From positions 1-46,152 of IMG/VR virus record IMGVR_UViG_3300028844_003231: a stretch of DNA of 46,152 nucleotides, one strand, 5' to 3'. Position 1 is the stretch's first letter. Each line of letters begins with the position of its first letter. The notes under the pieces were generated by a model, which made no database searches, was not told the origin of the DNA, and saw only the letters and a program-made list of their open reading frames with translations. Below, piece after piece: positions 2 to 34,313 of this stretch. The position numbers and the translations under genes are program-made. Source of the stretch: a virus.

Positions 2-523
2 AAAGCTTGGGAAAGGTGTGTTGAATTAAATGAACCTGTCATAATCATGGAAGATGATGCAATCATCAATCATCACTGGGATGAATTAAGGTATAAGGAG
101 CTTATAAAAGAATATCCTTTTGTTTATTTGCAACGCAACGAAAACGAGCCTGACCAAGTTACCCCAATAAATGACTACATAGAAAGACCAAGCTATCCCT
201 ACAACATGACTGCGTATTGTTTACACCCCCTTGGTGCAATAAAATTACTTCGCACAGTTAATTACAATGACTTCATACCCGTTGATGAGTTTTTGCCCGA
301 AGTTTTAAAAACCACATCACTGCAAATAGTTGCCTTAAAAGAAGATGCTTGCAATCAAATATCAAGAGATATGCTGCCATCTGATATAGAAAATAATAAA
401 CCCTTTAGACCCTACAAGGTCCATGCAGTAACCTGTGGCACAGATAGAAAAAAATGCACTTATGTAAACACTAGTGCTAGAAAATATGGCATAGATATAG
501 TTAATGTTGGCACAAACTTATGA
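2..523 (+). CDS. GT25-family glycosyltransferase, 5'-truncated by the window edge, with a PLOD-like tail segment
   Basis: The frame is open from base 2, so the N-terminus lies outside the window. The visible part reads LNEPVIIMEDDA, the acidic motif of glycosyltransferase family 25 (LPS and collagen galactosyltransferases), followed by an IPVDEFLPEVL segment matching the family's conserved PVDE region. The last 38 or so residues (YKVHAVTCGTDRKKC onward) look different: they resemble the first strand and helix of the glucosyltransferase domain of lysyl hydroxylases, which normally continues into the next gene. The stop overlaps the next start as ATGA. The gene may be the front half of a former GT25-PLOD fusion. 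Donor and acceptor sugars are unknown; the likely target is a virion or host surface structure. Confidence 0.8.
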   Translation, partial: KAWERCVELNEPVIIMEDDAIINHHWDELRYKELIKEYPFVYLQRNENEPDQVTPINDYIERPSYPYNMTAYCLHPLGAIKLLRTVNYNDFIPVDEFLPEVLKTTSLQIVALKEDACNQISRDMLPSDIENNKPFRPYKVHAVTCGTDRKKCTYVNTSARKYGIDIVNVGTNL

Positions 524-11193: not shown

Positions 11194-14100
11194 GTGGCAA
11201 AGAAACCTATATCTGAATATGAGCCAAGATTTCCAGAGGAAGAGCTAGAAGAAGAACAGCAGCCGATAGAAGAGCCAGAGGTTAGTCTTAAGCCAATATC
11301 TGAATATGTTCCTCGGGAAGAAGAGCTAGAGCCAACCACATCTGATATTGCTTTTGGAACTAAAGCACCAACATTAAACTACAGAACAGGCGAGCTTACT
11401 TTCCAAGACGAGGAAGGGAATGAAAAAACAGATCGTATAGACATTCCCAGGTCCTCTGATTTTATTTTAAGTGTCTATTCTGGCACAAAAGATTTTTTCT
11501 CTGGAATACCAGTTGGTGCAAAAGCAGCCCTTCCCGGTTTCTTACAAGGATTTAACGGAATTAAAAGAAAAGCGGTAGAATCTTATTTTTCTGAACTCAG
11601 GGGTGAGAGACCGGCTTCTTGGGTTACAGATAACCCAATGTTGTTTGCCGACCCAGCAATAACTTTAATGCAACAAACAGGTGAGTTGCAAAAATATAAT
11701 TCAAACCCTCAATATCAACAAGAAATTAAAAATGATTTGCTTACGTTTCTCGGGGAAAATGAAAAAGAATATACAAGGCTACAAAAAAAATTAGATAAAA
11801 TTTATAAAGACGCAGATCTTGGTGATATAGGCACAGCAGCAGCACAGGGATTTCAAAGCTTTATTCAACAGGCACCTGTGCTTTTATATGCTGGAGTTAG
11901 AAAAAACCCATATGTTGCATATTCAATGCTTCCCATGTTTGCAGCACAAGAATCTGGTCGATCCTATCAACAGGCAAGAATAGAGGGATTGTCAATTGAT
12001 GCAGCCAGCTTAAATGCAAATATAAATGGCACGTTAGAATTGATTACAGAGGCAGTGCCAACAAAGAAACTGTCTGATATATTTACACGATCTTATAAAA
12101 AGAACGAGAGCGTTTATAAAAGTTTAGCCAGAGATGGGTTCAATGTAACCCTTAATGAGTTCGGTTGGGAAACTGTAAACGGTGTTGCACAGGAGCTAAA
12201 CAACACAGCCTTTGGTCTACAGACAGAATTAAGAGAGGTCAGAGAGGCATCAAAAGACCCTTTGTACACAGGACCAAGAGAGATAGATGTTTTTAGAGAC
12301 ATTTCTTTTAATTCTTTCTTTGCATCTTTGGCAGGAAGTGGGTCTGCAATTACTGCAAGAGGAGTTTTTGAATTAGCACCAGAAGTAAAACAATCTTTAT
12401 TAGAACTTGATCCAAATAAGGCACGTGTACTTGCTAGAGAATTAGAAACAGCCGTAAAAAATGCGGACTTCCTTGGTCAAGCAATAGATCAAACAACTCT
12501 TGATATATTAAACACAGGCATAGATGGCACAACCCCGCTAGACCCTGAAGACTTTTTAACAAACAACTATTTAAACTATCAGCTTGGTGAGGTCGTACAG
12601 CTACCACCAGAGCCAGAGATAGACGAACTAGATGTCATGAGACAAAGAAAGTCTGCTGAAGAAATAGTAAGACCGCAAGACCTAGAGGCTGCACAAAAGG
12701 TTTTTAGTCCTACAACCACAGAGATAGATGAGGATGTTTCTCCGGAAGTTAGAGAGACCACAGAAGATTTATTAAATGATATAGAAATATCAGAACTTGA
12801 CGGCAAGATAAATCCAATAAGTTTCCAAGAAATAAACCCACAAGAGAAAGATGCTATTAAATCTAACATAGTAAATTCTAGAAGATTTAACATGGATGAC
12901 TTTTTGGTTGAGGGCTTTACCGAACAAGACATGGACGACTACATCTCAAGACTTAGGGACTTTAATGAGGTTGAGTCAGACAACTTATCCACATCTATAG
13001 CGGTTCTTAATCAGGCAGGCATGCCTTTTGAAATAGTAGAGGACATTTCGTTCTTTGGGATGATTGGTAACGACGAGCGTTCAGGAAGAGCAGTTAACAC
13101 ACCGTACGCTGTTTATAACCCAGCTTTTAGAAATGTAGGTTTTACAAAACTTTCAGGCATTTCTTATGATGTTGAAACCGCAAGAAAAACTCTTGTTGGT
13201 TTATCGACCCACAATCTTAATACAACACAAGCCCTTGCTCACGAACTTGGGCACCATATAGATTATGGCTTTTTTGATTACGGAGAATCTGCACACCTTG
13301 ATAGCCCTCTGTTTGAAATTCCAGAATATGAAATAGCAACCTCATTGGCTGACGAAATTGAAAGAGTACCAACCAGATCTAAACAAAGAACATATAACGA
13401 TGCTGGGTTTAGACAAAGAAATCCAGAGCTTGTTATTAAGTCTGGCACCAAAGGTCCAATTATTAGAGAAGCCTTTGCGATTCTAAATAACGAAAATTTA
13501 ACACGCATGAATCTTAAAAAAGAAGATGGTGTTTATTTTGAGGGACGCTTGCTTGAGTACCCAATGAGTTCTTATATTTCTTACATGCATGCGATATCAC
13601 AGGGAGCAGATCCTGTGGCAGCACAAAGACAACTTAGATTTATTAAGGGTGAGATTTTTGCACAAATGCACAACCTGTATTACACTAACAGGAGTCTACT
13701 AGAGCAATATGCACCAGAGACAGTTAAACTTATTGATAGGGTAAACAATGAAATTTCAGTTGACGGATTTGGAAACAAAAGCAGCGGAATACTTCGTGCG
13801 TTTCGGTCACCCCGTGCCCCTAGAAGTGTATCGGTTTCAGCCGAAAGAACAGACACAACAACAGATAGAACTATCCCTTCAGAAGGACCAGCCGGTGGAG
13901 AGCTGGCAGCAGAGGTCCCAACAGAAGGACGGGACGATATACGACCTCCAGTACGAACAAGGGTCGGAACAACAGGTCAATATGTAGGAGCACCCGAGGG
14001 TGTCACAACTCCCCAAGCTCTTGGGGCTTTAAGAAGAAAAATAGCAGGACTTACCAAAGAGGGTGAGGTTGGTAGATTTTGGTATGAACAAAGTGGTCAA

Positions 14101-17100
14101 GCCCTGCTGGACTATACAAGCGGCGATAAAAGAGAAGCAGATATTCTTGCACAAGCAATAGCAATTACATCTCCCAGTACGCCAGTAAGCACAAATATGG
14201 TTTATGCAATACAAGCATACAATCAATATAGGGCTGGTAGACCAATTAACACTGGCAGGTTCCCGCAATCAATGAACAAAAAGCTTGAAGATATTTTTTC
14301 GGGGAAAGATTGGAGCGGCAGAAAAACAAATAATTTTTATGCAAACATAATAGGGTTCATTGATCCAACAAAAGAGCAGGCTGTCACCACAGATCTTTGG
14401 ATGGTCAGAGCATTTGGGTATAAGGCAGAAGTACCGTCTCCAAGACAATATGATTTTGTAGAACAAGAGGTTCAAAAAATAGCAAATGATCTTGGGTGGG
14501 AGCAAAGGCAAGTACAGGCAGCTATATGGGTTGCCAAAAAATCACAGGACGAAGGCACATCACTAGAAGTTTCTAAATACGATTTTAGTGATGCGTTAAA
14601 AGAAAACCTTGCACAAATCAGCTGGGAGTCTAAACCCGGAGATACAACCAACCACATGCCAGAGGTAAAAGATGCAACCTATGAACAACTGCAAGAATAC
14701 CATGTGGCAGTGTCTAAGGCTTTTCTTGATCAAGACGGCAATGACATTATTGCAAAAGAGCTTGGTTTATTAACACCCGGTAACTTTGAAGCACCGGGAT
14801 ATTTTGAGCAAACCGTAAGCCCGGGAACACAAACCGAGGCTGTGCTTGCTAAAAAATATAAAGCACAGAAAGATGAAATCACAGCACTGGATCCAGCCTC
14901 GCAAGATTTAGCAGAGGCATACGCAGCTGTTGTTGGTATTTTATTAAAACAAGATGGTGTTGGATATCATAAACCCTTTTACCAAAAGAACATTGCAAAG
15001 AAAAACTTAAACGGAATAGAGATAGATATAGGTAGACCGCTGTCTGAAATAGAAACAAAAGCTATAGCAGAGGCAATAGCAGCAGAATCGGGCAACACAG
15101 AGTACAATCCAATTGCTTCTCCAAGGGGAGCAAGAATTCTTAATTTTGATTATGTCGGAATTGACAACATCAAGTTTATGTCCATTGTTAAAAGAGCATT
15201 AGATGGTGTACAATTCGATAATAACGAGTCGTATATCGCTGGACAGTTTGCAGCAAACACTGGTTATTTAGGTAACAACTGGGAGGTTGATAAAAATGGC
15301 GAAGGGTACCTTCAAAGTATTGGACGAATTTCACCCGATCTTCAAGGAAGGGTTGAAAGTCTCATCAGGAAAATCCAACCGAGAATTCAAGAAGTTGATC
15401 AAGACTTCTCAGAGCGATATGGATGGACAAGAAATGAATCCATCAACACCAACTACAGACTCAGACCAGAAGACCTAGACGCAGAATCCAGAGCAGCAGT
15501 ATTTGAGGGCAACAGGCTTGTTGAACCAGCCTATGTTGATTTTCCAATGCAGGCAATTAAAAATATTCAACAAAGGTCTTATAAAATTTATCCAACTCTT
15601 TTCCCCAAGGCTTATGACACAGAAGAGGACCTAAAAAAAACAAGAGATTGGATTGATGAAAATAATATAAATCCATATAGGTCTGGCGATGTAGTGTTTG
15701 GAAGCCCGCAAGTAGTAAGTGATTTTATTATTAGAATGCCCATTAACGATTTTCTTAAATTAACAACAACAACAGATGAACAAATTGAAAACATTAAGCT
15801 AAGGGGTCCAGCGTACAGTCTCCGTAGATCAAGAACAGAAGAGGGCGGTGTGTTTAAGGAAGATGTGTCTTTTAGATTTGACCCTGCTGAAATGGATGAA
15901 AACCCATCACGAACAATAGCAACATTTCTTGCTATAGATCCAGATGGTAAGGTGATTGGTCATGAGGGTAGACATAGATCAGCCTTGGCTCTACAAGACG
16001 GAGCACAAACAATTCCAGTAAATATACAAATAGGCTATAACACAGAGAGCAGAGCTGCCTTCGAGTCTATTGCAGAAAAAATGTTCAAAGAAACAGGGGA
16101 TATTCCAAGAACATTGAAAGACTATGGAATTGATATTTTTAAACCTCAGTCTTTTTCAGGGCTTGAAGCAAGAAAAAACTATGAGTTTGATACTAATAAC
16201 TATGAGTCAGCAGCAATCATAGGAGACGGACAAGCAGCCCTTGCTGTTGCTCAAGGACAAGATACCCCGGGTATTATGAAGCCCGAAGATTCGGATATGC
16301 TTATGGAAGTCCCACCAGAGAAAGGAAGTAAACCACCTCCATCTGACCCAAATCAAAACAGACAATTTACTTTGATGGATGAGAACTGGTTTGAAAATCA
16401 ATTTAGAAATTTTAAATTAAATATTGTTAATAACTTTGACCCAGCGTTCACTGTAGAAAATACAATTAAATCTCAGTTCGGACCCGAGGCAATCGAGGGA
16501 AAAAGAATAACTGACGAAACAGACCTATATCACGGCAAAGTAAAAACTGGTGTAGAGAAGTTTGAAAGACAGGCTGAAACTTTAATTAAGTTTATTGTTG
16601 ATAACGGATACACAATAGATCAATACAATAAGTTTATATACAACCTACATGCACCTGAAAGAAATGAATATATCAATAGCCTTAGAGAGCCCGGACAACC
16701 CGGTTCTGTTAAATATAAAGACAGAGGATCTGGAATCAAGACAGAAGATGCTGTTAAGTATTTAAAAAGAAACGGCGTTATATACGAAGACGGAAAAGCA
16801 CGAGCTGTTGCCGCTAAAGGTAAAATATTAATGGAGGCTTACAACAAATACCATAAGCCAATTATAGATAACACAATAAAACTTTATAGAGACAATGGTC
16901 TTGTTGATCAAGAAAACCTTGCAGACTGGAAAGATAGATATGACTATTATGTCCCGCTTGCTGGTTTTGCAGCGGACACACTTAAGAAAGGATCTTCTCC
17001 GTCTAGCAAGGGTAATGGTTCTATATCTCAAGCCTTCTCCGTATCCGGTGCTGAAGTTAAAAGAGCTAAGGGAAGAACATCACAGGCTGACTTTGCACTA

Positions 17101-19302
17101 GAGCAAACTCTAGGCAGGGCATCAGCCGCCGTTATTAGATCAGAAAAAAATAATATTGTTACTAAACTAGCAAACTTAGCAAGAGAATTTCCTAACGCAG
17201 ATGTATGGGAGGTTAAGGGTAAGAATAAATTTATGGCAGCCAAGCCACAATGGGATGGTCAGAAAGCTATATTCTCATTTAAAGAAGATGGTAAAGAAAA
17301 GGTTGTTATTATTAGAAACGAGAGACTTGCTAAAGGTATGGCTGGATGGGACACAGATACAAGCGGCAGAATAATGAGTACCGTTGCAAGTGTGACCAGA
17401 GGTCTTGCTATGGTAAACACCGTATTAGATCCAGAGTTTATGATTACAAACTTTGCTCGTGACTTTCAAGCTGCCGGTTTAAATTTAGCAGCCGAGCAAG
17501 AGCTTGTTGGTGGAAGAGCTGAAGGTCTTAAAATCCTAGAAGAAAAGTTTGGATTTAGAAGCGTATTTAAAAACATGGGCGTTTTAAAACGTGGAGAAAC
17601 TTTCAAAGAGATGAGTGCGGAAGATCAAAAATATTATGATGCATTTAAAGAGTCTGGAGCCGAGACAGGATATGTGGTGCCACCAACTATTGAAAAGATA
17701 CAGAGTGATCTTAACAACATGGCAGATATGTACAAAGGAACATTTAAAGGCAATGCTAAAAAAGCCTTGCGTTCTGTTTATAAACCGATTGAGATTGCTA
17801 ATACTGTTGTTGAGAATGGAGCAAGGTTTACCGCCTTTAGGTCAGCAATAGAGCTGCAAGGTGGCATTGATAATGTAACCCCGGAACAAATTAAGAAAGC
17901 CGCAATATTGGCAAAGAATTTAACTATTAACTTTAATAGAAAAGGAATACAAGGCAATGGTCTTAATGCAATGTATATGTTCTTTAATGCGTCAGTTCAG
18001 GGCTCTGTTAATTTCTTTAGAGGTTATGGTCCCGGCGGAGTATCACAAAGAAAATTAAAACTTGCAGGCGGTTTAGTCTCTATAGGATTTATTTCAACTC
18101 TTTACAACTTAATGTCTTCACCAGAAGATGAAGATGGAATGTTGATATATCAAAAATATCCAGATTATAAAAAGAAAACAAATTATTTAATTATGTTAGC
18201 AACGCCTGAAATTGATTTTAAAGATGGTGAATTATCTTTTGAAAGAAAAGATTCTACAGAGGTAGTTAACTTTAATGGTAAACCGGTTGCGGTTACTATA
18301 CCTTTGCCCTATGGGTTTAATGTTTTTCATAATCTTGGTCGCACAATGGCTGAGCTTATGTACACAAATTCAGTAGAAGGAAGTAACATAACGTCGCTAG
18401 AGAACGCAGCTGTGGAGCTTGCTGATGTAATGACAGGATCATTCTCACCAATAGGCATTGCAGAAACCAAAGAAAAAGGCTTTGGATCTATTTTTCCTAA
18501 AGCATTAAAAACAGGAACGCCGACTATCGCTAAACCAATAGTAGAACTCTCAATGAATGAAAATTGGTTTGGTGCTCCAATATATCCAGAACAATTCCCG
18601 GGAGATTACACACCAAAATCTAAACTTAGAAAAAGATCTGACAGCGAGTGGATAGCCGCCGTAACAAGTTTTATGAATGATGTTACTGGGGGCAATGACT
18701 ATTATGCCGGTCAGGTAGATCTGTCACCACAAACCATAGGTTACTTAGTTGCATATGGTACGGGCGGTATTGGTAGGACTATTGGTAGATCAAGTCAGCT
18801 GGTTGTAGATGGTGCTAAAGAAATAGCAGAAAGAGGTTTTGGTGAGGGTCAGGGTGCTGTAAGAACAAGAGAACTTAATCAAATACCTTTTGTTAGAAGA
18901 TTGTTAGCCGTCCCTGAAGACCATGTAACAAGCAGATTATTTTACGATGCGGTGGTTGATGTTGAATCTTACTCTCAAAACTATTTAAGAAATGAACAAG
19001 ATCCGAACGTGTCAGTAGAAGACTTAAATAAAATTTATAATGCGAGACCAAACCTTTTTGACTTATCTGACACCATTCCATTGTCAGCCAAGGCTGATCG
19101 TGCAGAAGTTGTTTCTGAAAAAGAAAGCAGTTTAAAAATTATTAAAAATTTACGCAAAGAAATGATGGACAATGAAGAATATAAAAAATCTAATCCAAGG
19201 TTTTATTATAAAGAACAGGAAAGAATTGAAGATGAGATACTCGCAGAAATGAAAGTGTTTATTAAATCTTATAACGCAGCAATAGCAAAAGATAAAAAGT
19301 AA
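11194..19302 (+). CDS. 2702-residue polyvalent virion protein with zincin-like motif, ParB-like and LPD38-like domains
   Basis: GTG start two bases after the previous stop. The N-terminus carries the motif KPISEY-PR twice (from residues 4 and 32). Residues 681-688 read LAHELGHH, an HExxH zinc-protease signature (H683, E684, H687), with REAFA (E759) as a possible third ligand. Around residue 1590, IGHEGRHRSALAL resembles the ParB/Srx-like modules of polyvalent phage proteins. From about 2079, LDPEFMITNFARDFQAA matches the LPD38-type C-terminal region, with a hydrophobic segment near 2293. Such proteins are packaged and injected with DNA (gp16-type ejection) and can carry enzymes that act in the new host. 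Protease activity is a motif-based inference. It is the last gene of the rightward late operon here. Confidence 0.85.
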   Translation: MAKKPISEYEPRFPEEELEEEQQPIEEPEVSLKPISEYVPREEELEPTTSDIAFGTKAPTLNYRTGELTFQDEEGNEKTDRIDIPRSSDFILSVYSGTKDFFSGIPVGAKAALPGFLQGFNGIKRKAVESYFSELRGERPASWVTDNPMLFADPAITLMQQTGELQKYNSNPQYQQEIKNDLLTFLGENEKEYTRLQKKLDKIYKDADLGDIGTAAAQGFQSFIQQAPVLLYAGVRKNPYVAYSMLPMFAAQESGRSYQQARIEGLSIDAASLNANINGTLELITEAVPTKKLSDIFTRSYKKNESVYKSLARDGFNVTLNEFGWETVNGVAQELNNTAFGLQTELREVREASKDPLYTGPREIDVFRDISFNSFFASLAGSGSAITARGVFELAPEVKQSLLELDPNKARVLARELETAVKNADFLGQAIDQTTLDILNTGIDGTTPLDPEDFLTNNYLNYQLGEVVQLPPEPEIDELDVMRQRKSAEEIVRPQDLEAAQKVFSPTTTEIDEDVSPEVRETTEDLLNDIEISELDGKINPISFQEINPQEKDAIKSNIVNSRRFNMDDFLVEGFTEQDMDDYISRLRDFNEVESDNLSTSIAVLNQAGMPFEIVEDISFFGMIGNDERSGRAVNTPYAVYNPAFRNVGFTKLSGISYDVETARKTLVGLSTHNLNTTQALAHELGHHIDYGFFDYGESAHLDSPLFEIPEYEIATSLADEIERVPTRSKQRTYNDAGFRQRNPELVIKSGTKGPIIREAFAILNNENLTRMNLKKEDGVYFEGRLLEYPMSSYISYMHAISQGADPVAAQRQLRFIKGEIFAQMHNLYYTNRSLLEQYAPETVKLIDRVNNEISVDGFGNKSSGILRAFRSPRAPRSVSVSAERTDTTTDRTIPSEGPAGGELAAEVPTEGRDDIRPPVRTRVGTTGQYVGAPEGVTTPQALGALRRKIAGLTKEGEVGRFWYEQSGQALLDYTSGDKREADILAQAIAITSPSTPVSTNMVYAIQAYNQYRAGRPINTGRFPQSMNKKLEDIFSGKDWSGRKTNNFYANIIGFIDPTKEQAVTTDLWMVRAFGYKAEVPSPRQYDFVEQEVQKIANDLGWEQRQVQAAIWVAKKSQDEGTSLEVSKYDFSDALKENLAQISWESKPGDTTNHMPEVKDATYEQLQEYHVAVSKAFLDQDGNDIIAKELGLLTPGNFEAPGYFEQTVSPGTQTEAVLAKKYKAQKDEITALDPASQDLAEAYAAVVGILLKQDGVGYHKPFYQKNIAKKNLNGIEIDIGRPLSEIETKAIAEAIAAESGNTEYNPIASPRGARILNFDYVGIDNIKFMSIVKRALDGVQFDNNESYIAGQFAANTGYLGNNWEVDKNGEGYLQSIGRISPDLQGRVESLIRKIQPRIQEVDQDFSERYGWTRNESINTNYRLRPEDLDAESRAAVFEGNRLVEPAYVDFPMQAIKNIQQRSYKIYPTLFPKAYDTEEDLKKTRDWIDENNINPYRSGDVVFGSPQVVSDFIIRMPINDFLKLTTTTDEQIENIKLRGPAYSLRRSRTEEGGVFKEDVSFRFDPAEMDENPSRTIATFLAIDPDGKVIGHEGRHRSALALQDGAQTIPVNIQIGYNTESRAAFESIAEKMFKETGDIPRTLKDYGIDIFKPQSFSGLEARKNYEFDTNNYESAAIIGDGQAALAVAQGQDTPGIMKPEDSDMLMEVPPEKGSKPPPSDPNQNRQFTLMDENWFENQFRNFKLNIVNNFDPAFTVENTIKSQFGPEAIEGKRITDETDLYHGKVKTGVEKFERQAETLIKFIVDNGYTIDQYNKFIYNLHAPERNEYINSLREPGQPGSVKYKDRGSGIKTEDAVKYLKRNGVIYEDGKARAVAAKGKILMEAYNKYHKPIIDNTIKLYRDNGLVDQENLADWKDRYDYYVPLAGFAADTLKKGSSPSSKGNGSISQAFSVSGAEVKRAKGRTSQADFALEQTLGRASAAVIRSEKNNIVTKLANLAREFPNADVWEVKGKNKFMAAKPQWDGQKAIFSFKEDGKEKVVIIRNERLAKGMAGWDTDTSGRIMSTVASVTRGLAMVNTVLDPEFMITNFARDFQAAGLNLAAEQELVGGRAEGLKILEEKFGFRSVFKNMGVLKRGETFKEMSAEDQKYYDAFKESGAETGYVVPPTIEKIQSDLNNMADMYKGTFKGNAKKALRSVYKPIEIANTVVENGARFTAFRSAIELQGGIDNVTPEQIKKAAILAKNLTINFNRKGIQGNGLNAMYMFFNASVQGSVNFFRGYGPGGVSQRKLKLAGGLVSIGFISTLYNLMSSPEDEDGMLIYQKYPDYKKKTNYLIMLATPEIDFKDGELSFERKDSTEVVNFNGKPVAVTIPLPYGFNVFHNLGRTMAELMYTNSVEGSNITSLENAAVELADVMTGSFSPIGIAETKEKGFGSIFPKALKTGTPTIAKPIVELSMNENWFGAPIYPEQFPGDYTPKSKLRKRSDSEWIAAVTSFMNDVTGGNDYYAGQVDLSPQTIGYLVAYGTGGIGRTIGRSSQLVVDGAKEIAERGFGEGQGAVRTRELNQIPFVRRLLAVPEDHVTSRLFYDAVVDVESYSQNYLRNEQDPNVSVEDLNKIYNARPNLFDLSDTIPLSAKADRAEVVSEKESSLKIIKNLRKEMMDNEEYKKSNPRFYYKEQERIEDEILAEMKVFIKSYNAAIAKDKK

Positions 19303-31152: not shown

Positions 31153-31604
31153 GCTGCCTCCCATGTTTCTGATTTTAACAAATCTGCATAAATTTCATTA
31201 AGCAGGTTTTGAGTTATCCAGTAAGCATCTGAGTCAACCCAGTCATCGTGTTCACAAGATTGATATCTGTAACACTTGATGTAGCCAATCATCTCAATTG
31301 GCTTATCAGTAGGTGGCGTCATTGCATATGCGGTTGCTTCTGCAATATAGGCTTGGATTTTTTCTTTGATTGTTTCTTTGTCCTCTGCCTCATCGGGGGA
31401 AAAGAAAAAAGAGAACCAACTATCCGGATACCTTTCCTGCAAGCTTTTAATGTTCTCCTTAACTAGAAGATCAACAACCTGCTCTGTGTCGTAACGCATT
31501 ATCTGACGAGCAACTTGGTTATACCCAAGCTGCCCACCGCCTACACTGTTACGGTACTTTACGATTTTACCTATCTGCTTAGGTGATACTAAGAATGCAC
31601 TCAT
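31149..31604 (-). CDS. hypothetical protein (151 aa)
   Basis: 151 residues. N-terminal SAFLVSPKQIGKIVKYRNSVG, a helical centre with DTEQVVDLLVKENIKSLQERYPDSW, and a C-terminal aromatic region (CYRYQSCEHDDWVDSDAYW). This layout is shared by proteins of marine phages that follow antirestriction-like or accessory genes. Overlaps both neighbours. Function unknown. Confidence 0.65.
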   Translation of the reverse strand: MSAFLVSPKQIGKIVKYRNSVGGGQLGYNQVARQIMRYDTEQVVDLLVKENIKSLQERYPDSWFSFFFSPDEAEDKETIKEKIQAYIAEATAYAMTPPTDKPIEMIGYIKCYRYQSCEHDDWVDSDAYWITQNLLNEIYADLLKSETWEAA

Positions 31605-31831
31605 GATTTATCCTCAAGATCCATAGCAGCTTTGTTTACTATATCTTTTATTATCCTTCTTCCAGCAAGCTCTGTTGGAGAGTTTTGTAGAATAAAGTCA
31701 ATAAAAAAATATAACCCCTGAGCGACAACATGAGCCATACCCAAAGGCGGTTCAGCTCTTACCATCGCATCGTATAGTTCGTCATAAAATTCTTGATGAA
31801 CTTTTTTTAATTTACGTTCTGATTTTGTCAT
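31601..31831 (-). CDS. hypothetical protein (76 aa), first gene after hammerhead A
   Basis: 76 residues, helical (SERKLKKVHQEFYDELYDAMVRAE, MAHVVAQGLYFFIDFILQNSP). CATAGGAGTAAATT precedes the ATG, the same leader as found after the other ribozymes. Cleavage by hammerhead A would leave a 5' leader of 28 bases. It starts the last coupled gene group of this operon. Function unknown. Confidence 0.65.
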   Translation of the reverse strand: MTKSERKLKKVHQEFYDELYDAMVRAEPPLGMAHVVAQGLYFFIDFILQNSPTELAGRRIIKDIVNKAAMDLEDKS

Positions 31832-31853
31832 AATTTACTCCTATGTTTAATTT

Positions 31854-31903
31854 GACTAAGACGCCTCACGGCGTTTCGATCATTAAGATCTCATCAGTTA
31901 GTC
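31854..31903 (-). ncRNA. hammerhead ribozyme A, type I
   Basis: Minus strand, 5' to 3': stem I GACTAA (31903-31898); core CTGATGA (31897-31891); stem II GATC-TTAAT-GATC; core GAAA (31877-31874); stem III CGCC-GTGA-GGCG; U16.1 and C17; then stem I TTAGTC (31859-31854). The predicted cut is between 31860 and 31859 after GUC. All conserved core bases are present and A15.1-U16.1 pairs. It lies between the stop at 31906 and the ATG at 31831, whose ribosome binding site follows stem I. Confidence 0.94.
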
Positions 31904-31905
31904 TG

Positions 31906-32247
31906 TTAGCTAAAGACCTTTTGTAACGCTGTCCCCAGCTTCATGTTGGCTGCTTGCTTCTTTGAGATAGACCGATCCATTAGATCAAAGTAAAGCTCAT
32001 CAAGGTCCCACATTGCCACGTCAAGATCTGCGGCGGTAAGGTCCTTAATTTTTTTATTCATAACATCGTTAAAAATTTTACCCTCAGCCTTGTTAAAGAT
32101 CTCAAGAATCATTGAGTAATAATTTTCATCTACAAGCGTGGCATGCTCATTACAATGATTTTGTAATGCCTCAAGATGATCTGCTGTGGCATATCCGTTG
32201 TCTAAGATCTGCTTTTCAACGTGATCAATTTTTTGTGTTAAGTCCAT
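31906..32247 (-). CDS. hypothetical protein (113 aa), between hammerheads A and B
   Basis: 113 residues, fully helical: DLTQKIDHVEKQILDNG, ADHLEALQNHCNEHATLVDENYYSMI, DLDVAMWDLDELYFDLMDR. ATATAGGAGAAAATT precedes the ATG. Its stop sits three bases from the hammerhead A core. No family recognised. Confidence 0.65.
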   Translation of the reverse strand: MDLTQKIDHVEKQILDNGYATADHLEALQNHCNEHATLVDENYYSMILEIFNKAEGKIFNDVMNKKIKDLTAADLDVAMWDLDELYFDLMDRSISKKQAANMKLGTALQKVFS

Positions 32248-32268
32248 AATTTTCTCCTATATTAATTT

Positions 32269-32322
32269 GACTAAGACTCCCATTGCTGGGAGTTTCGACC
32301 ATCTAGGTCTCATCAGTTAGTC
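32269..32322 (-). ncRNA. hammerhead ribozyme B, type I
   Basis: Minus strand: stem I GACTAA (32322-32317); CTGATGA (32316-32310); stem II GACC-TAGAT-GGTC; GAAA (32296-32293); stem III CTCCCA-GCAA-TGGGAG with a GNRA loop; U, C17; stem I TTAGTC (32274-32269). Cut predicted between 32275 and 32274. It lies about 20 bases after the start site of the internal promoter at 32341-32375, so it would be almost the first thing transcribed. Leader after the cut: 27 bases to the ATG at 32247. Confidence 0.95.
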
Positions 32323-32340
32323 TGTATGCTTTGTCTCATG

Positions 32341-32375
32341 TGTATACATAATATATCAATGAACCCAGCTGTCAA
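32341..32375 (-). promoter_or_regulatory. internal leftward promoter B
   Basis: TTGACA (32375-32370) begins right after the stop of the upstream gene; TATTAT (32353-32348) follows 16 bases on. TGTATACA overlaps the expected start site, followed by ATGAGACAA. The layout and about 70% of bases match promoter A near 34200. It drives hammerhead B and the downstream genes. Confidence 0.78.
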
Positions 32376-32594
32376 TTATCTTGAGCTAGCCATGGCATCT
32401 GCTCGACCCATTAAAAATAATTTATATACGTTCTCTCTATCTAAACTATCTCCACCGCCCCAAAGATTGGGGAAGTTGTTTTTATATATTTTTGTATACT
32501 TACAAGCCTCTAATGGCTGCATGTTATTTTCATCATGACCATAAAAATCTAGTAAGTAACAAACAAATTTAGAATTTTCATTGTGTAAACTCAT
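32376..32594 (-). CDS. hypothetical protein (72 aa)
   Basis: 72 residues: SKFVCYLLDFYGHDENNMQPLEACKYTKIYKNN then RENVYKLFLMGRADAMASSR. Overlaps the upstream gene by four bases. The -35 box of promoter B follows its stop directly. No family recognised. Confidence 0.6.
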   Translation of the reverse strand: MSLHNENSKFVCYLLDFYGHDENNMQPLEACKYTKIYKNNFPNLWGGGDSLDRENVYKLFLMGRADAMASSR

Positions 32595-33016
32595 ACTGAT
32601 ACCTCTTTTTTAGTTAACTCATACTCAAAGTCAGTTAGATAAGAATAAGAATTTAGAAATTCCTCTTTGGTCATATTTTTAAAATCTTCCATTTTTTCCT
32701 CATCGTCTTTGAAATGAGTAAGCCATTCTTCAGCAACGCTGTCCCACACCCAGCCCATCAACCCAAGCAAGACCTCAAGATTCTCACTGTCTAATCCACA
32801 AACCCAGTAATAAGGTTCTCGATTAAGCAGGTTAGACTTCTCCCTGATATAGCTATCAGCGATCCAGTCATCTCCATCAAGCTTGTAGAAATAATCTACA
32901 AAGGCTTCTGTTGATTCGTACTGTTGCATAAGCTTGTTGAGCTCATTAACAATGTACCCCTCGTCAAAAGAATAATTTTTAAAAACGATTCCTTTGGTTT
33001 TTTGTGCAATATTCAT
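32591..33016 (-). CDS. hypothetical protein (141 aa), first gene after hammerhead C
   Basis: 141 residues, acidic and helical, with FVDYFYKLDGDDWIADSYI and LLGLMGWVWDSVAEEWLTHF. ATATAGGAGAAAAATT precedes the ATG. No family recognised. Stop overlaps the next start. Confidence 0.65.
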   Translation of the reverse strand: MNIAQKTKGIVFKNYSFDEGYIVNELNKLMQQYESTEAFVDYFYKLDGDDWIADSYIREKSNLLNREPYYWVCGLDSENLEVLLGLMGWVWDSVAEEWLTHFKDDEEKMEDFKNMTKEEFLNSYSYLTDFEYELTKKEVSV

Positions 33017-33039
33017 AATTTTTCTCCTATATTGAATTT

Positions 33040-33104
33040 GACTAAGACCTCCTTTCTCGGGGGAAGAAAGAAGGTTTCGCTCAATCAGAGCTCATCAGTT
33101 AGCC
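33040..33104 (-). ncRNA. hammerhead ribozyme C, type I, long stem III
   Basis: Minus strand: stem I GGCTAA (33104-33099); CTGATGA (33098-33092); stem II GCTC-TGATT-GAGC; GAAA (33078-33075); stem III CCTTCTTTC paired to the 3' arm ending GAAAGGAGG (nine pairs, one G-U); U, C17; stem I TTAGTC (33045-33040, one G-U pair). Cut predicted between 33046 and 33045. The 5' end touches the stop of the upstream gene at 33105. Confidence 0.92.
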
Positions 33105-33479
33105 TTACCTGTAGTAGCTATCTCTAGCAGGTGATAAGAAGTAAGGAGTATTAAGTCTCTCCATGTACTTGTTACCGCCCATCAAGTTAGTACGCTCAAC
33201 CATTGGCTCGTTCTCGTAGAAGTAATCGTAAGTAACAACCTCTGATTCACACAAAGCCCTATAAACTTTAAGGTCAATGTTGTGCTCTTCCATGCTCTCA
33301 CGATAACAGTCATGCTCTTTTGCCCAAGCCACATCTTTTTCAAACAACTTGAAGTGTTTATTCTTAAGCCTAGTCAAAGCAGCCTTAGCAGCTCGCTCTG
33401 TGTTCCACTCTTTGTAACTGCCATACTCCATGCCGTATCTCTTACCAGTAGCCTTATTAAATATTACAAATCTATCCAT
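33105..33479 (-). CDS. hypothetical protein (124 aa), between hammerheads C and D
   Basis: 124 residues, basic and aromatic: MDRFVIFNKATGKRYG, YKEWNTERAAKAALTRLKNKH, YDYFYENEPMVERTNLMGG. The opening resembles small phage proteins with a beta hairpin and a helix that read a nucleotide or nucleic acid, but no family is certain. CACATAGGAGAAAAATT precedes the ATG. Confidence 0.62.
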   Translation of the reverse strand: MDRFVIFNKATGKRYGMEYGSYKEWNTERAAKAALTRLKNKHFKLFEKDVAWAKEHDCYRESMEEHNIDLKVYRALCESEVVTYDYFYENEPMVERTNLMGGNKYMERLNTPYFLSPARDSYYR

Positions 33480-33522
33480 AATTTTTCTCCTATGTGTTTA
33501 TGAATGTTTGGGGACCATCCCC

Positions 33523-33576
33523 GCACTAGACTCCCATTGCTGGGAGTTTCGACTCATTAAGTCTCGTCAGTAGTGC
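33523..33576 (-). ncRNA. hammerhead ribozyme D, type I, overlapping a coding end
   Basis: Minus strand: stem I GCACTA (33576-33571); core CTGACGA (33570-33564, N7 is C, which the CUGANGA consensus allows); stem II GACT-TAATG-AGTC; GAAA (33550-33547); stem III CTCCCA-GCAA-TGGGAG; U, C17; stem I TAGTGC (33528-33523). Cut predicted between 33529 and 33528. The first 20 bases are the last codons and stop of the upstream gene. A second hairpin (GGGGA-TGG-TCCCC) follows the cut. Confidence 0.9.
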
Positions 33577-33772
33577 TAGCAAGTTTGCGGTCAACCCTCT
33601 TTTTGAGTTCTTTAGGGCTGGTTGCAAAAATAGCCATTTCAGGAACCTCGTAGTAAGACTGCACCACATAGTCTGCGTTGAAGCTATAGGTTCTGCTGAC
33701 CTTAACTTTAACGCCCCTGTATAGGTAGTCTTTGAAGCCGCCCTGTTTGTCTTTGCTTAATGGATAATTCAT
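33557..33772 (-). CDS. hypothetical protein (71 aa) whose 3' end doubles as ribozyme
   Basis: 71 residues from the ATG at 33772, preceded by GGGAGGAAGC; a longer in-frame form is unlikely. MNYPLSKDKQGGFKDYLYRGVKVKVSR, beta-rich, then IFATSPKELKKRVDRKL. The final residues STTDET are encoded by the stem I, core and stem II of hammerhead D. No family recognised. Confidence 0.65.
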   Translation of the reverse strand: MNYPLSKDKQGGFKDYLYRGVKVKVSRTYSFNADYVVQSYYEVPEMAIFATSPKELKKRVDRKLASTTDET

Positions 33773-33909
33773 GCTTCCTCCCACTTAAGTGCATTGTTTG
33801 AATGTTCTAAAAGTTTGTCTAAAACATCGTCATGAGTGTAGCCCTTGTTGATTGCGTCATCGCCGAAAGCTATCTCATATACATCTTCTATAAATTGTTT
33901 GTCGAACAT
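33769..33909 (-). CDS. small helical protein (46 aa), first gene of the operon
   Basis: 46 residues: MFDKQFIEDVYEIAFGDDAI, then GYTHDDVLDKLLEHSNNALKWEEA. AATAGGAGAAAACTT precedes the ATG and hammerhead E lies just upstream. The stop overlaps the next start (ATGA). No family recognised. Confidence 0.6.
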   Translation of the reverse strand: MFDKQFIEDVYEIAFGDDAINKGYTHDDVLDKLLEHSNNALKWEEA

Positions 33910-33931
33910 AAGTTTTCTCCTATTTAATTAA

Positions 33932-33987
33932 TTAACTGTTTCATCCTTTTGGAATCATCAGAGGGACCACCCAGTCCCTTACAGTTA
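33932..33987 (-). ncRNA. hammerhead ribozyme E, type III
   Basis: Minus strand: stem III TAACTG (33987-33982) and U16.1; A17; cut predicted between 33980 and 33979; stem I AGGGAC-TGGGTG-GTCCCT (33979-33962); CTGATGA (33961-33955); stem II TTCC-AAAA-GGAT; GAAA (33942-33939); stem III CAGTTA (33938-33933). The strand order is that of type III, unlike the other four. The first pair of stem II is U-U, a weak point, and the cleavage triplet is GUA, which the NUH rule allows. The ribozyme would remain on the downstream mRNA after cutting. Confidence 0.78.
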
Positions 33988-34186
33988 CCACTCTGATTTT
34001 GGATTCGCCTCGCCGCTTTGGAATTCTGCGGGTCATTAGGTCCCTTCCTTAGTTAATTCAAAATACCTGCTAAGGTTCAGTTCCTTGTCTTGAGTTAGAG
34101 ACTGCCAAGGTTCAGTCCCATGGGGTTTTAAGATTAGATATATGTGTTGTGCCCGCCCCCCTGTGTGTGTTTACGTTGTCTCATAT
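33988..34186 (-). other. operon leader with tandem repeats and extensive predicted pairing
   Basis: No gene. It lies between promoter A and hammerhead E. Plus strand CTGC(C/T)AAGGTTCAGT(C/T)CC occurs at 34067-34084 and 34102-34119, period 35. In RNA sense the copies fold as small hairpins (GACTG...CAGTC). CCTTAG also pairs with CTAAGG across 18 bases. GGGACC near 34040 can pair with the GGTCCC of hammerhead E. An AGGGGGGCGGG tract (34162-34152) lies near the 5' end. Confidence 0.55.
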
Positions 34187-34220
34187 GTATACACATTATA
34201 CTAATGGATAGAGCTGTCAA
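34187..34220 (-). promoter_or_regulatory. main leftward promoter A of the ribozyme operon
   Basis: TTGACA (34220-34215) is followed by TATAAT (34200-34195, 14-base spacer) and TAATGT (34198-34193, 16-base spacer). TGTATACA and ATGAGACAA follow. Promoter B has the same order of elements at the same distances, with TTGACAGCT, CATT, TATA and TGTATACA shared. The exact -10 box is therefore uncertain but the promoter itself is well supported. Confidence 0.75.
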
Positions 34221-34313
34221 TACTTTTTGCAAAAATAATTTAATTAATTTTTTGGGGGGTGTAATCGGGGAAAGAGAAAAAGACAACCAATCTACTTGAA
34301 TCATTAGCCTCTA

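Follow-up and report, generated by a model that had tools for sequence, protein, structure and literature searches.

Hammerhead ribozymes grouped around phage genes have been described before. Perreault et al. (2011; PMC3088659) reported prophages in which multiple hammerheads flank single genes or short blocks of genes, with transcript processing proposed as the role; tandem arrangements from three bacteria cleave in vitro, and the one from A. tumefaciens also cleaves in E. coli. The same paper describes HHphage of haloviruses HF1 and HF2, a hammerhead located 13 nt upstream of an early-gene start codon, and the 5' end of an HF2 transcript maps within 3 nt of the hammerhead site (PMC3088659). 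In T7, five RNase III cuts divide early mRNA into mono- and dicistronic mRNAs, one of which is the RNA polymerase mRNA (PMC4858673). The role of bacterial and phage hammerheads has been open since 2011, and the layout reported here suggests an answer by itself: ahead of many genes, and on one strand, a compact ribozyme is squeezed in between stop and start codons.

We analyzed a 46,152-nt stretch of DNA from a marine-type phage (IMG/VR record IMGVR_UViG_3300028844_003231; “the window”). On its minus strand, positions 31854-33987 hold four type I hammerheads (A to D) and one type III hammerhead (E), which share one orientation and each have a Shine-Dalgarno sequence and start codon shortly 3' of them. 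An earlier, sequence-only reading of this DNA had placed five such motifs, four of type I and one of type III, in a single operon; all of them were located, and the identification holds. The stem I and stem II sequences that it gave also stand, with the exception of stem I of copy C, which is GGCTAA/TTAGTC with one G-U pair and not GACTAA. The features are given below in the order in which the minus strand would be transcribed; genes 1 to 7 have no assigned function.

33933-33987, minus strand: ribozyme E, type III; open stem III AACTG/CAGTT, stem I hairpin AGGGAC-TGGGTG-GTCCCT, CTGATGA, GAAA, and stem II TTCC-AAAA-GGAT with a U-U mismatch at the outer (first) pair; predicted cut GUA^A, between 33980 and 33979
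33769-33909, minus strand: gene 1, 46 aa, the first gene after E; ribosome-binding site (RBS) AGGAG at 33917-33921; 100% identical in relatives L004 and L033
33557-33772, minus strand: gene 2, about 71 aa from its ATG start (the open reading frame list carries an upstream GTG start); ends within ribozyme D
33523-33576, minus strand: ribozyme D, type I; stem I GCACTA/TAGTGC, stem II GACT/AGTC; overlaps the 3' end of the preceding gene, stop codon included; predicted cut between 33529 and 33528
33105-33479, minus strand: gene 3, 124 aa, after D; RBS at 33487-33491; stop codon directly adjoins ribozyme C
33040-33104, minus strand: ribozyme C, type I; long stem III, stem II GCTC/GAGC; predicted cut between 33046 and 33045
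32591-33016, minus strand: gene 4, 141 aa; RBS at 33024-33028; ATG 29 nt 3' of the predicted C cut
32376-32594, minus strand: gene 5, 72 aa, phrog_7799
32348-32375, minus strand: sigma-70-like promoter TTGACA-16-TATTAT, between gene 5 and ribozyme B
32269-32322, minus strand: ribozyme B, type I; stem I GACTAA/TTAGTC, stem II GACC/GGTC; predicted cut between 32275 and 32274
31906-32247, minus strand: gene 6, 113 aa; RBS at 32254-32258; ATG 27 nt 3' of the predicted B cut, stop 2 nt ahead of A
31854-31903, minus strand: ribozyme A, type I; stem I GACTAA/TTAGTC, stem II GATC/GATC; predicted cut between 31860 and 31859
31601-31831, minus strand: gene 7, 76 aa; RBS at 31838-31842; ATG 28 nt 3' of the predicted A cut

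Copies A to D contain the core CUGANGA ... GAAA, with U16.1 and H17 at the predicted cut site, and three stems around it; stem I is open, stems II and III are closed by loops, and compensatory changes keep the pairing. E likewise has the core, an open stem III, closed stems I and II, and compensatory changes. The minimum free energy fold was the hammerhead for A, B, D, and E; for C, a competing alternative fold was the minimum, an in silico preference that speaks against processing. The pattern CTGANGA-N(8-20)-GAAA occurred 9 times in the window (the five array copies included), compared with 1.8 +/- 1.4 times in shuffles. The promoter-like site matched the consensus at 11 of 12 positions and was the best of the region, where the total number of such sites was not above that in shuffles. 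Since it lies between gene 5 and B, B would sit in the 5' leader of the resulting transcript and, for that transcript, would trim the leader rather than separate two genes, a point against processing. A search for intrinsic terminators (GC hairpin plus U run, sense strand) found none on the minus strand between 31000 and 34600.

At gathering thresholds, an Rfam search gave no match in the window. E scored 39.2 bits (E=5e-6) with Hammerhead_3 (RF00008; gathering cut-off, 48.5); B, D, and A scored 27.4, 25.9, and 21.7 bits, respectively, with Hammerhead_1 (RF00163; cut-off, 34), and the Rfam search with E-values listed no RF00163 match for C. The RAGATH-1 hammerhead model (RF03152), with its upstream hairpin and short stem II, did not fit either (best score, 30.2 bits; cut-off, 56.3). 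Because A to E all fall under the gathering cut-offs, standard annotation overlooks them. Such a cut-off is a curation threshold and not a defining biochemical feature. Our type I model, R1, was built from 57 diverse copies, nearly all from other phages and with A as the sole window copy, and in the window it found exactly A to D and nothing else, with E-values from 7e-15 to 5e-10 (A, 69.0 bits, E=7e-15; B, 63.5 bits, E=1.6e-13; C, 58.8 bits, E=2.5e-12; D, 49.5 bits, E=5.2e-10). The type III model, R2, the training set of which includes E, found E at E=3.7e-22. When Rfam was applied to the compact type I sub-form described below, 1 of several dozen copies from 14 loci passed, and none passed in 8 further loci; as a test of presence, the gathering thresholds are too strict for this sub-form. 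The sequence-only reading had named Rfam scores below threshold for most copies as grounds for giving up the array, and all five scores are indeed below threshold. Since Rfam misses nearly all members of the sub-form and the sub-form model gives strong E-values, we judge this threshold to be the wrong test.

That structure is kept while sequence changes, as had been proposed from the window, was borne out by covariation. In the alignment of 57 type I copies, 15 of 15 pairs were kept in 100% of cells, with double changes at 13 of the 15, and the covariation score was 0.725, compared with 0.142 for shuffled and <0.1 for slid controls; type III copies likewise covary. In relatives L004 and L033, stem II of copy A is GACC/GGTC, and stem III of E changes among relatives from AACTG/CAGTT to AACTA/TAGTT, which is compensatory. 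Since selection of copies by patterns (GACTAA, GGTT, CAA) biases conservation figures, we repeated these figures on 109 copies that fit none of the patterns and on 58 from relatives selected by their terminase, and they were unchanged. In 2.17 Mb of related contigs, a strict full-motif scanner returned 419 matches with the true core and 0 with scrambled core words. The terminase-selected relatives were also searched for the same array: 28 of 31 had hammerheads at the syntenic place, always on the array strand, and in the other three (L269, L281, and L312) none of the hammerheads was seen. The array is a feature of the clade. The low Rfam scores of A to E might be taken to mean that these are functionless hammerhead-like hairpins produced by chance or decay, but we give that reading almost no credence, given the covariation, the synteny and strand bias, and the scrambled-core controls, which rule out a chance origin at the sequence level.

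Array content differs among close relatives: L033 lacks B, and one close relative has eight hammerheads. Because arrays vary in this way, no single copy is essential, which also speaks against processing. Genes vary as well; L012 and L017 have an unrelated 180-aa gene in place of gene 4 behind an identical ribozyme C, and a 112-aa gene instead of gene 7. Exchange of genes between ribozymes that remain identical is what would be seen if the ribozymes were mainly homologous recombination joints or mobile cassettes for early-gene exchange, with catalysis a leftover. We consider this very unlikely, since selection on the folded RNA is required to account for compensatory changes this pervasive, an invariant core, and fixed lengths of the stems.

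The same gene-by-gene arrangement was found in dozens of phages, related and unrelated, with up to 14 type I copies. The T7-like carrier G015 has 14, with ribozymes directly before and after its RNA polymerase gene, and another phage genome has 10 copies of the compact form. Single compact copies occur in cultured pelagiphages and Flavobacterium phages. Cultured carriers (Pelagibacter phages HTVC019P, HTVC022P, HTVC131P, HTVC304P, and Jormungand and the Flavobacterium elemo phages) are available, so that function is directly testable in infected cells. In HTVC019P, a type III copy was read by eye near L248:985, where R2 gave no match. Carriers are mostly viral contigs, with 3 matches in 84,980 species genomes, and blastn of the array region against named phages gave no match. 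A type III copy stands at the head of the array in the window and its close relatives, in G028 to G030, and in the elemo phages; G012 and G015 contradict the idea that this is always so.

The compact type I form resembles RF00163 in its core, three stems, open stem I, and predicted cut after NUH. It differs in having a stem I of exactly 6 bp with A and AA flanks, a 5-nt loop II (UNANU), and scores that for nearly all copies lie under the cut-off, and in lacking stem Ib. This outer stem I region usually makes a loop contact, and its absence, which bears on the rate at cellular magnesium, speaks against processing; the conserved A/AA flanks and UNANU loop are candidates for a tertiary contact. 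Most of the stem III loops are tetraloops of minimal size (GNRA, UUCG). Like RF00008, E and its relatives are laid out as type III hammerheads, and they have UGNGUR as loop I and a loop II rich in A; E departs from that family in its mismatched first stem II pair and its score under the cut-off.

The usual order is stop codon, ribozyme, about 24 nt, and ATG. The distance from predicted cut to ATG has a median of 24 nt (quartiles, 21 to 29), and for 400 of 419 copies the cut lies within 150 nt of an ATG, compared with 45% for random points. The upstream stop codon lies at a median of +6 nt relative to the ribozyme start and overlaps the ribozyme in 239 of 361 cases, and all 100 loci with at least two copies have them on a single strand. 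The 400 downstream genes form 263 unrelated clusters, which argues that the element serves the layout of the transcript and not one gene. Cut sites fixed 20 to 30 nt ahead of the ATG, the stop codons within ribozymes, and the place of B just 3' of a promoter-like site would also suit a role more in regulating expression than in processing. The cut, whether constitutive or responsive to ions, temperature, or translation, would then determine how stable or how well translated the message of each downstream gene is, for example, through removal of a 5' triphosphate leader or through ribosomes on the upstream gene that prevent ribozyme folding. We regard this as unlikely, because minimal stem III tetraloops leave no room for a ligand domain and the downstream genes are unrelated.

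We think it likely that the array consists of co-transcriptionally self-cleaving hammerheads that divide a polycistronic early transcript of the phage into mRNAs of one or two genes. A type I copy, placed between one gene's stop codon and the next gene's Shine-Dalgarno sequence, would cut at GUC^, so that the compact stem II/stem III part would stay as a structured 3' end, with a 2',3'-cyclic phosphate, on the upstream mRNA, and the downstream mRNA would begin with a 5'-OH and a short leader of uniform kind, UUAGUCAAAUU...AGGAG...AUG. Copy E, being of type III, would cut upstream of itself and remain as the structured 5' end of the first mRNA. The RNA itself would in this way do what host RNase III does at T7 intergenic sites. 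The sequences show the motif, its covariation, the constant geometry, the confinement of each array to a single strand, the persistence of the array among relatives, and the bracketing of the RNA polymerase gene in G015, and the published cases of hammerhead cleavage and of T7 processing serve as precedent. Cleavage, the end chemistry in vivo, and an effect on stability or translation are what we infer, and the gene-by-gene arrangement suggests that these phages cut long transcripts into single-gene messages without a host enzyme.

The 5'-OH and 2',3'-cyclic phosphate ends that type I cleavage yields could also be rejoined. Successive cuts would free single-gene RNAs to be re-ligated into circles, either through the next ribozyme, whose stem I is able to pair with the 5' end of the same RNA, or through a host ligase, for example, RtcB. 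Stem I strands are swappable in 61% of adjacent pairs, compared with 24% between arrays, which favors circles, but neighbors also resemble each other more in stems II and III, as local duplication predicts. Moreover, about 40% of neighbors do not fit each other (D to C in the window is one such case, as are most pairs in arrays such as L083, L054, and L157), and Perreault et al. sought spliced or circular products and found none (PMC3088659). Circles as the outcome thus seem highly improbable; they are possible for some pairs, and neighbor incompatibility rules them out as a general function.

If the hammerheads cleave as processing would have it, they would supply very short ribozymes of natural origin, ready for use in dividing polycistronic transcripts into mRNAs with equal leaders. 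It is also conceivable, although we lean slightly against it, that in several tailed-phage lineages, T7-like phages included, gene-by-gene hammerheads have taken over from host RNase III as the general means by which early transcripts are cut. Such phages would make a full set of mRNAs, each for a single gene, with uniform leaders that start in a 5'-OH and with 3' ends capped by a ribozyme, and would do so with no host processing enzyme.

The array shares intergenic placement with the T7 RNase III sites, and the ribozymes of G015 bracket the RNA polymerase gene as those sites do; unlike them, it is predicted to cleave itself and not to be cut by a host protein enzyme. RNase III cuts leave 5'-phosphate ends, in contrast with the 5'-OH ends left by hammerheads. 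The parallel lies in function and place and is not one of homology. HHphage of HF1 and HF2 differs from the window array in that it occurs singly, has a variant core, and belongs to archaeal viruses. Also close are the prophage clusters of Perreault et al., where, as in the window, several hammerheads lie close together flanking phage genes, with integrase and anti-restriction genes nearby; the suggestion that tandem phage hammerheads might be undescribed was therefore mistaken. The largest arrangement described in the text of that paper is a triple; here the window has 5 hammerheads, a close relative has 8, and a genome can have as many as 14 type I copies. Unlike the clusters described there, nearly every copy here lies at a fixed distance before a start codon in one compact type I form, type III is mixed in, and the carriers are mostly viral contigs. 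What is new relative to Perreault et al. (2011) is the copy number and scale, the fixed geometry before start codons, the compact form, the type III mix, the spread, and the RNase III-like placement.

The five hammerheads claimed at 31854-33987 by the sequence-only reading are present, all on the minus strand, where they punctuate a series of small genes whose function is unknown. In transcript order, the array reads as follows.

33933-33987, minus strand: type III hammerhead E, followed by genes 1 and 2
33523-33576, minus strand: type I hammerhead D, followed by gene 3
33040-33104, minus strand: type I hammerhead C, followed by genes 4 and 5 and a promoter-like site
32269-32322, minus strand: type I hammerhead B, followed by gene 6
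31854-31903, minus strand: type I hammerhead A, followed by gene 7

The window encodes an internal virion protein, a head-tail adaptor, a major head protein, and a terminase, all of podovirus type, together with an integrase and RecE/Erf-like recombination genes; IMG/VR records, this one of 46,152 bases among them, may be fragments. It also carries a 2OG-Fe(II) oxygenase-like gene at its start (47-523, plus strand) and a 2702-aa open reading frame (11194-19302, plus strand) that takes up ~18% of the record. The predicted cuts of C, B, and A lie 29, 27, and 28 nt upstream of the ATG, respectively, that of D lies ~49 nt upstream of the gene start with a small GGGGATGGTCCCC hairpin between, and that of E lies ~70 nt upstream of the gene start. 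The hairpin (33510-33522, minus strand), directly 3' of D, is kept in the close relatives L004, L017, and L033 and would be positioned near the 5' end of the mRNA left by predicted D cleavage. The E leader (34050-34130, minus strand) contains a repeated element (copies GGGACTGAACCTTGGCAG and GGAACTGAACCTTAGCAG), placed between the ribozyme and a TTGACA/TATAAT-like site near 34220. Promoter-like regions upstream of B (32330-32375) and E (34180-34225), both on the minus strand, have TTGACA in common at equal spacing to TATACANATGAGACAA, an arrangement that suggests a shared phage regulatory site.

The Rfam covariance search proposed for the array gave a divided answer: no match in the window at gathering thresholds, but at the E-value level copy E matched Hammerhead_3, and copies B and D matched Hammerhead_1, as did copy A in a one-genome search. 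A strict type I scanner, which required the core and minimum lengths of 5, 3, and 4 bp for stems I, II, and III, found 419 matches in 2.17 Mb of related viral loci versus 0 with five scrambled cores, and a type III scanner found 16 versus 0 in the control. E-values from our home-made models are rough; the sequences used to build the type I model included copy A, and those used for the type III model included copy E.

Nearly all type I copies share a compact geometry, with stem I of exactly 6 bp flanked by A (5') and AA (3') and a 4-bp stem II closed by a 5-nt loop, U-N-A-N-U. Stem III is variable and mostly tetraloop closed, and the predicted cut follows UC (or UA). Among 109 unique copies outside all search patterns, stem I was exactly 6 bp in 101 and A lay upstream in 96; the corresponding counts for 58 copies from terminase-selected relatives were 55 and 58. 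Stems I and II fell within the minimum-energy structure in 319 of 351 copies. The earlier inference that structure is kept while sequence changes was borne out: across 57 diverse sequences, pairing held in every cell, with double changes in 13 of 15 pairs, and orthologous copies in close relatives carry compensated changes in stem II of A (GATC/GATC to GACC/GGTC) and stem III of E (AACTG/CAGTT to AACTA/TAGTT). In natural type I hammerheads, contact between the stem I region and loop II accelerates cleavage (PMC6155905); here, a reduced version of this contact may be made by the conserved A and AA flanks together with loop II, in place of the absent outer stem.

Among 31 relatives picked by terminase similarity alone, hammerheads occurred at a similar upstream distance in 25 (strict scanner) or 28 (models). 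In every case they lay on the array strand, and the opposite strand had none. Copy number and hammerhead type turn over fast: L264 (terminase identity, 91%) has seven type I copies and one type III, L291 has three type III plus type I, and L308 has five type I. At the same syntenic place, L325 (367-4549, minus strand; terminase identity, 59%) has seven type I copies, the seventh only at E = 0.02, and at least six of them belong to a different sub-form with a 5-bp stem I (UCUAG/CUAGA), a longer stem II, and an identical GUCCUAGAUAACC tail. In close relatives, unrelated genes are exchanged behind an identical ribozyme.

Pattern scans gave at least 120 matches in viral contigs and only three loci, all apparently Bacteroidota, across 84,980 species genomes from bacteria and archaea. 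Whole viral records carry up to 14 type I copies (G015, a T7-like phage, 14; G002, 10; G023, 8; G004 and G037, 7 each). The cultured Pelagibacter phages HTVC019P, HTVC131P, HTVC022P, HTVC304P, and Jormungand have one type I copy each, upstream of a marR-integrase-RNA polymerase block. In Flavobacterium elemo phages, a single type I copy is joined by a single type III copy. Inspection by eye also suggests, ahead of one early gene of HTVC019P (L248:955-1050), a type III hammerhead whose loop II is long; repeated AATCAACAATCAAC motifs precede several early genes of this phage. In elemoC, the annotated antisense open reading frame phanotate42, probably a spurious call, overlaps the type I hammerhead (L249:7962-8069).

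Hammerheads clustered around single phage genes, which cut in vitro and in E. coli, were described by Perreault et al. in 2011, who already proposed transcript processing (PMC3088659); the suggestion that a tandem set might be undescribed therefore does not stand. Neither long gene-by-gene arrays nor the compact sub-form was found in the open-access library searched, which covers only a minority of subscription papers and preprints, and we thus regard the array as a novel variation of a known kind.

The upstream gene's stop codon lies a median of 6 nt into the ribozyme (within it in 239 of 361 cases), and the next ATG lies a median of 24 nt downstream of the predicted cut. A ribozyme directly precedes RNA polymerase in four loci; in G015, this gene has a ribozyme directly on either side, and a further ribozyme lies between thymidylate synthase and MazG. 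From known chemistry, type I cleavage would leave an upstream mRNA with a ribozyme-capped 3' end, type III cleavage at E would leave a structured 5' end, and products downstream of the cut would carry a 5'-OH; with stem I short and AU-rich, the downstream mRNA should depart after cleavage. In T7, host RNase III cuts early mRNA at five sites, yielding mono- and dicistronic mRNAs (PMC4858673), whereas here the cutting is proposed to be done by the hammerheads themselves; the best reading is that they would do in cis what RNase III does for T7 early mRNA.
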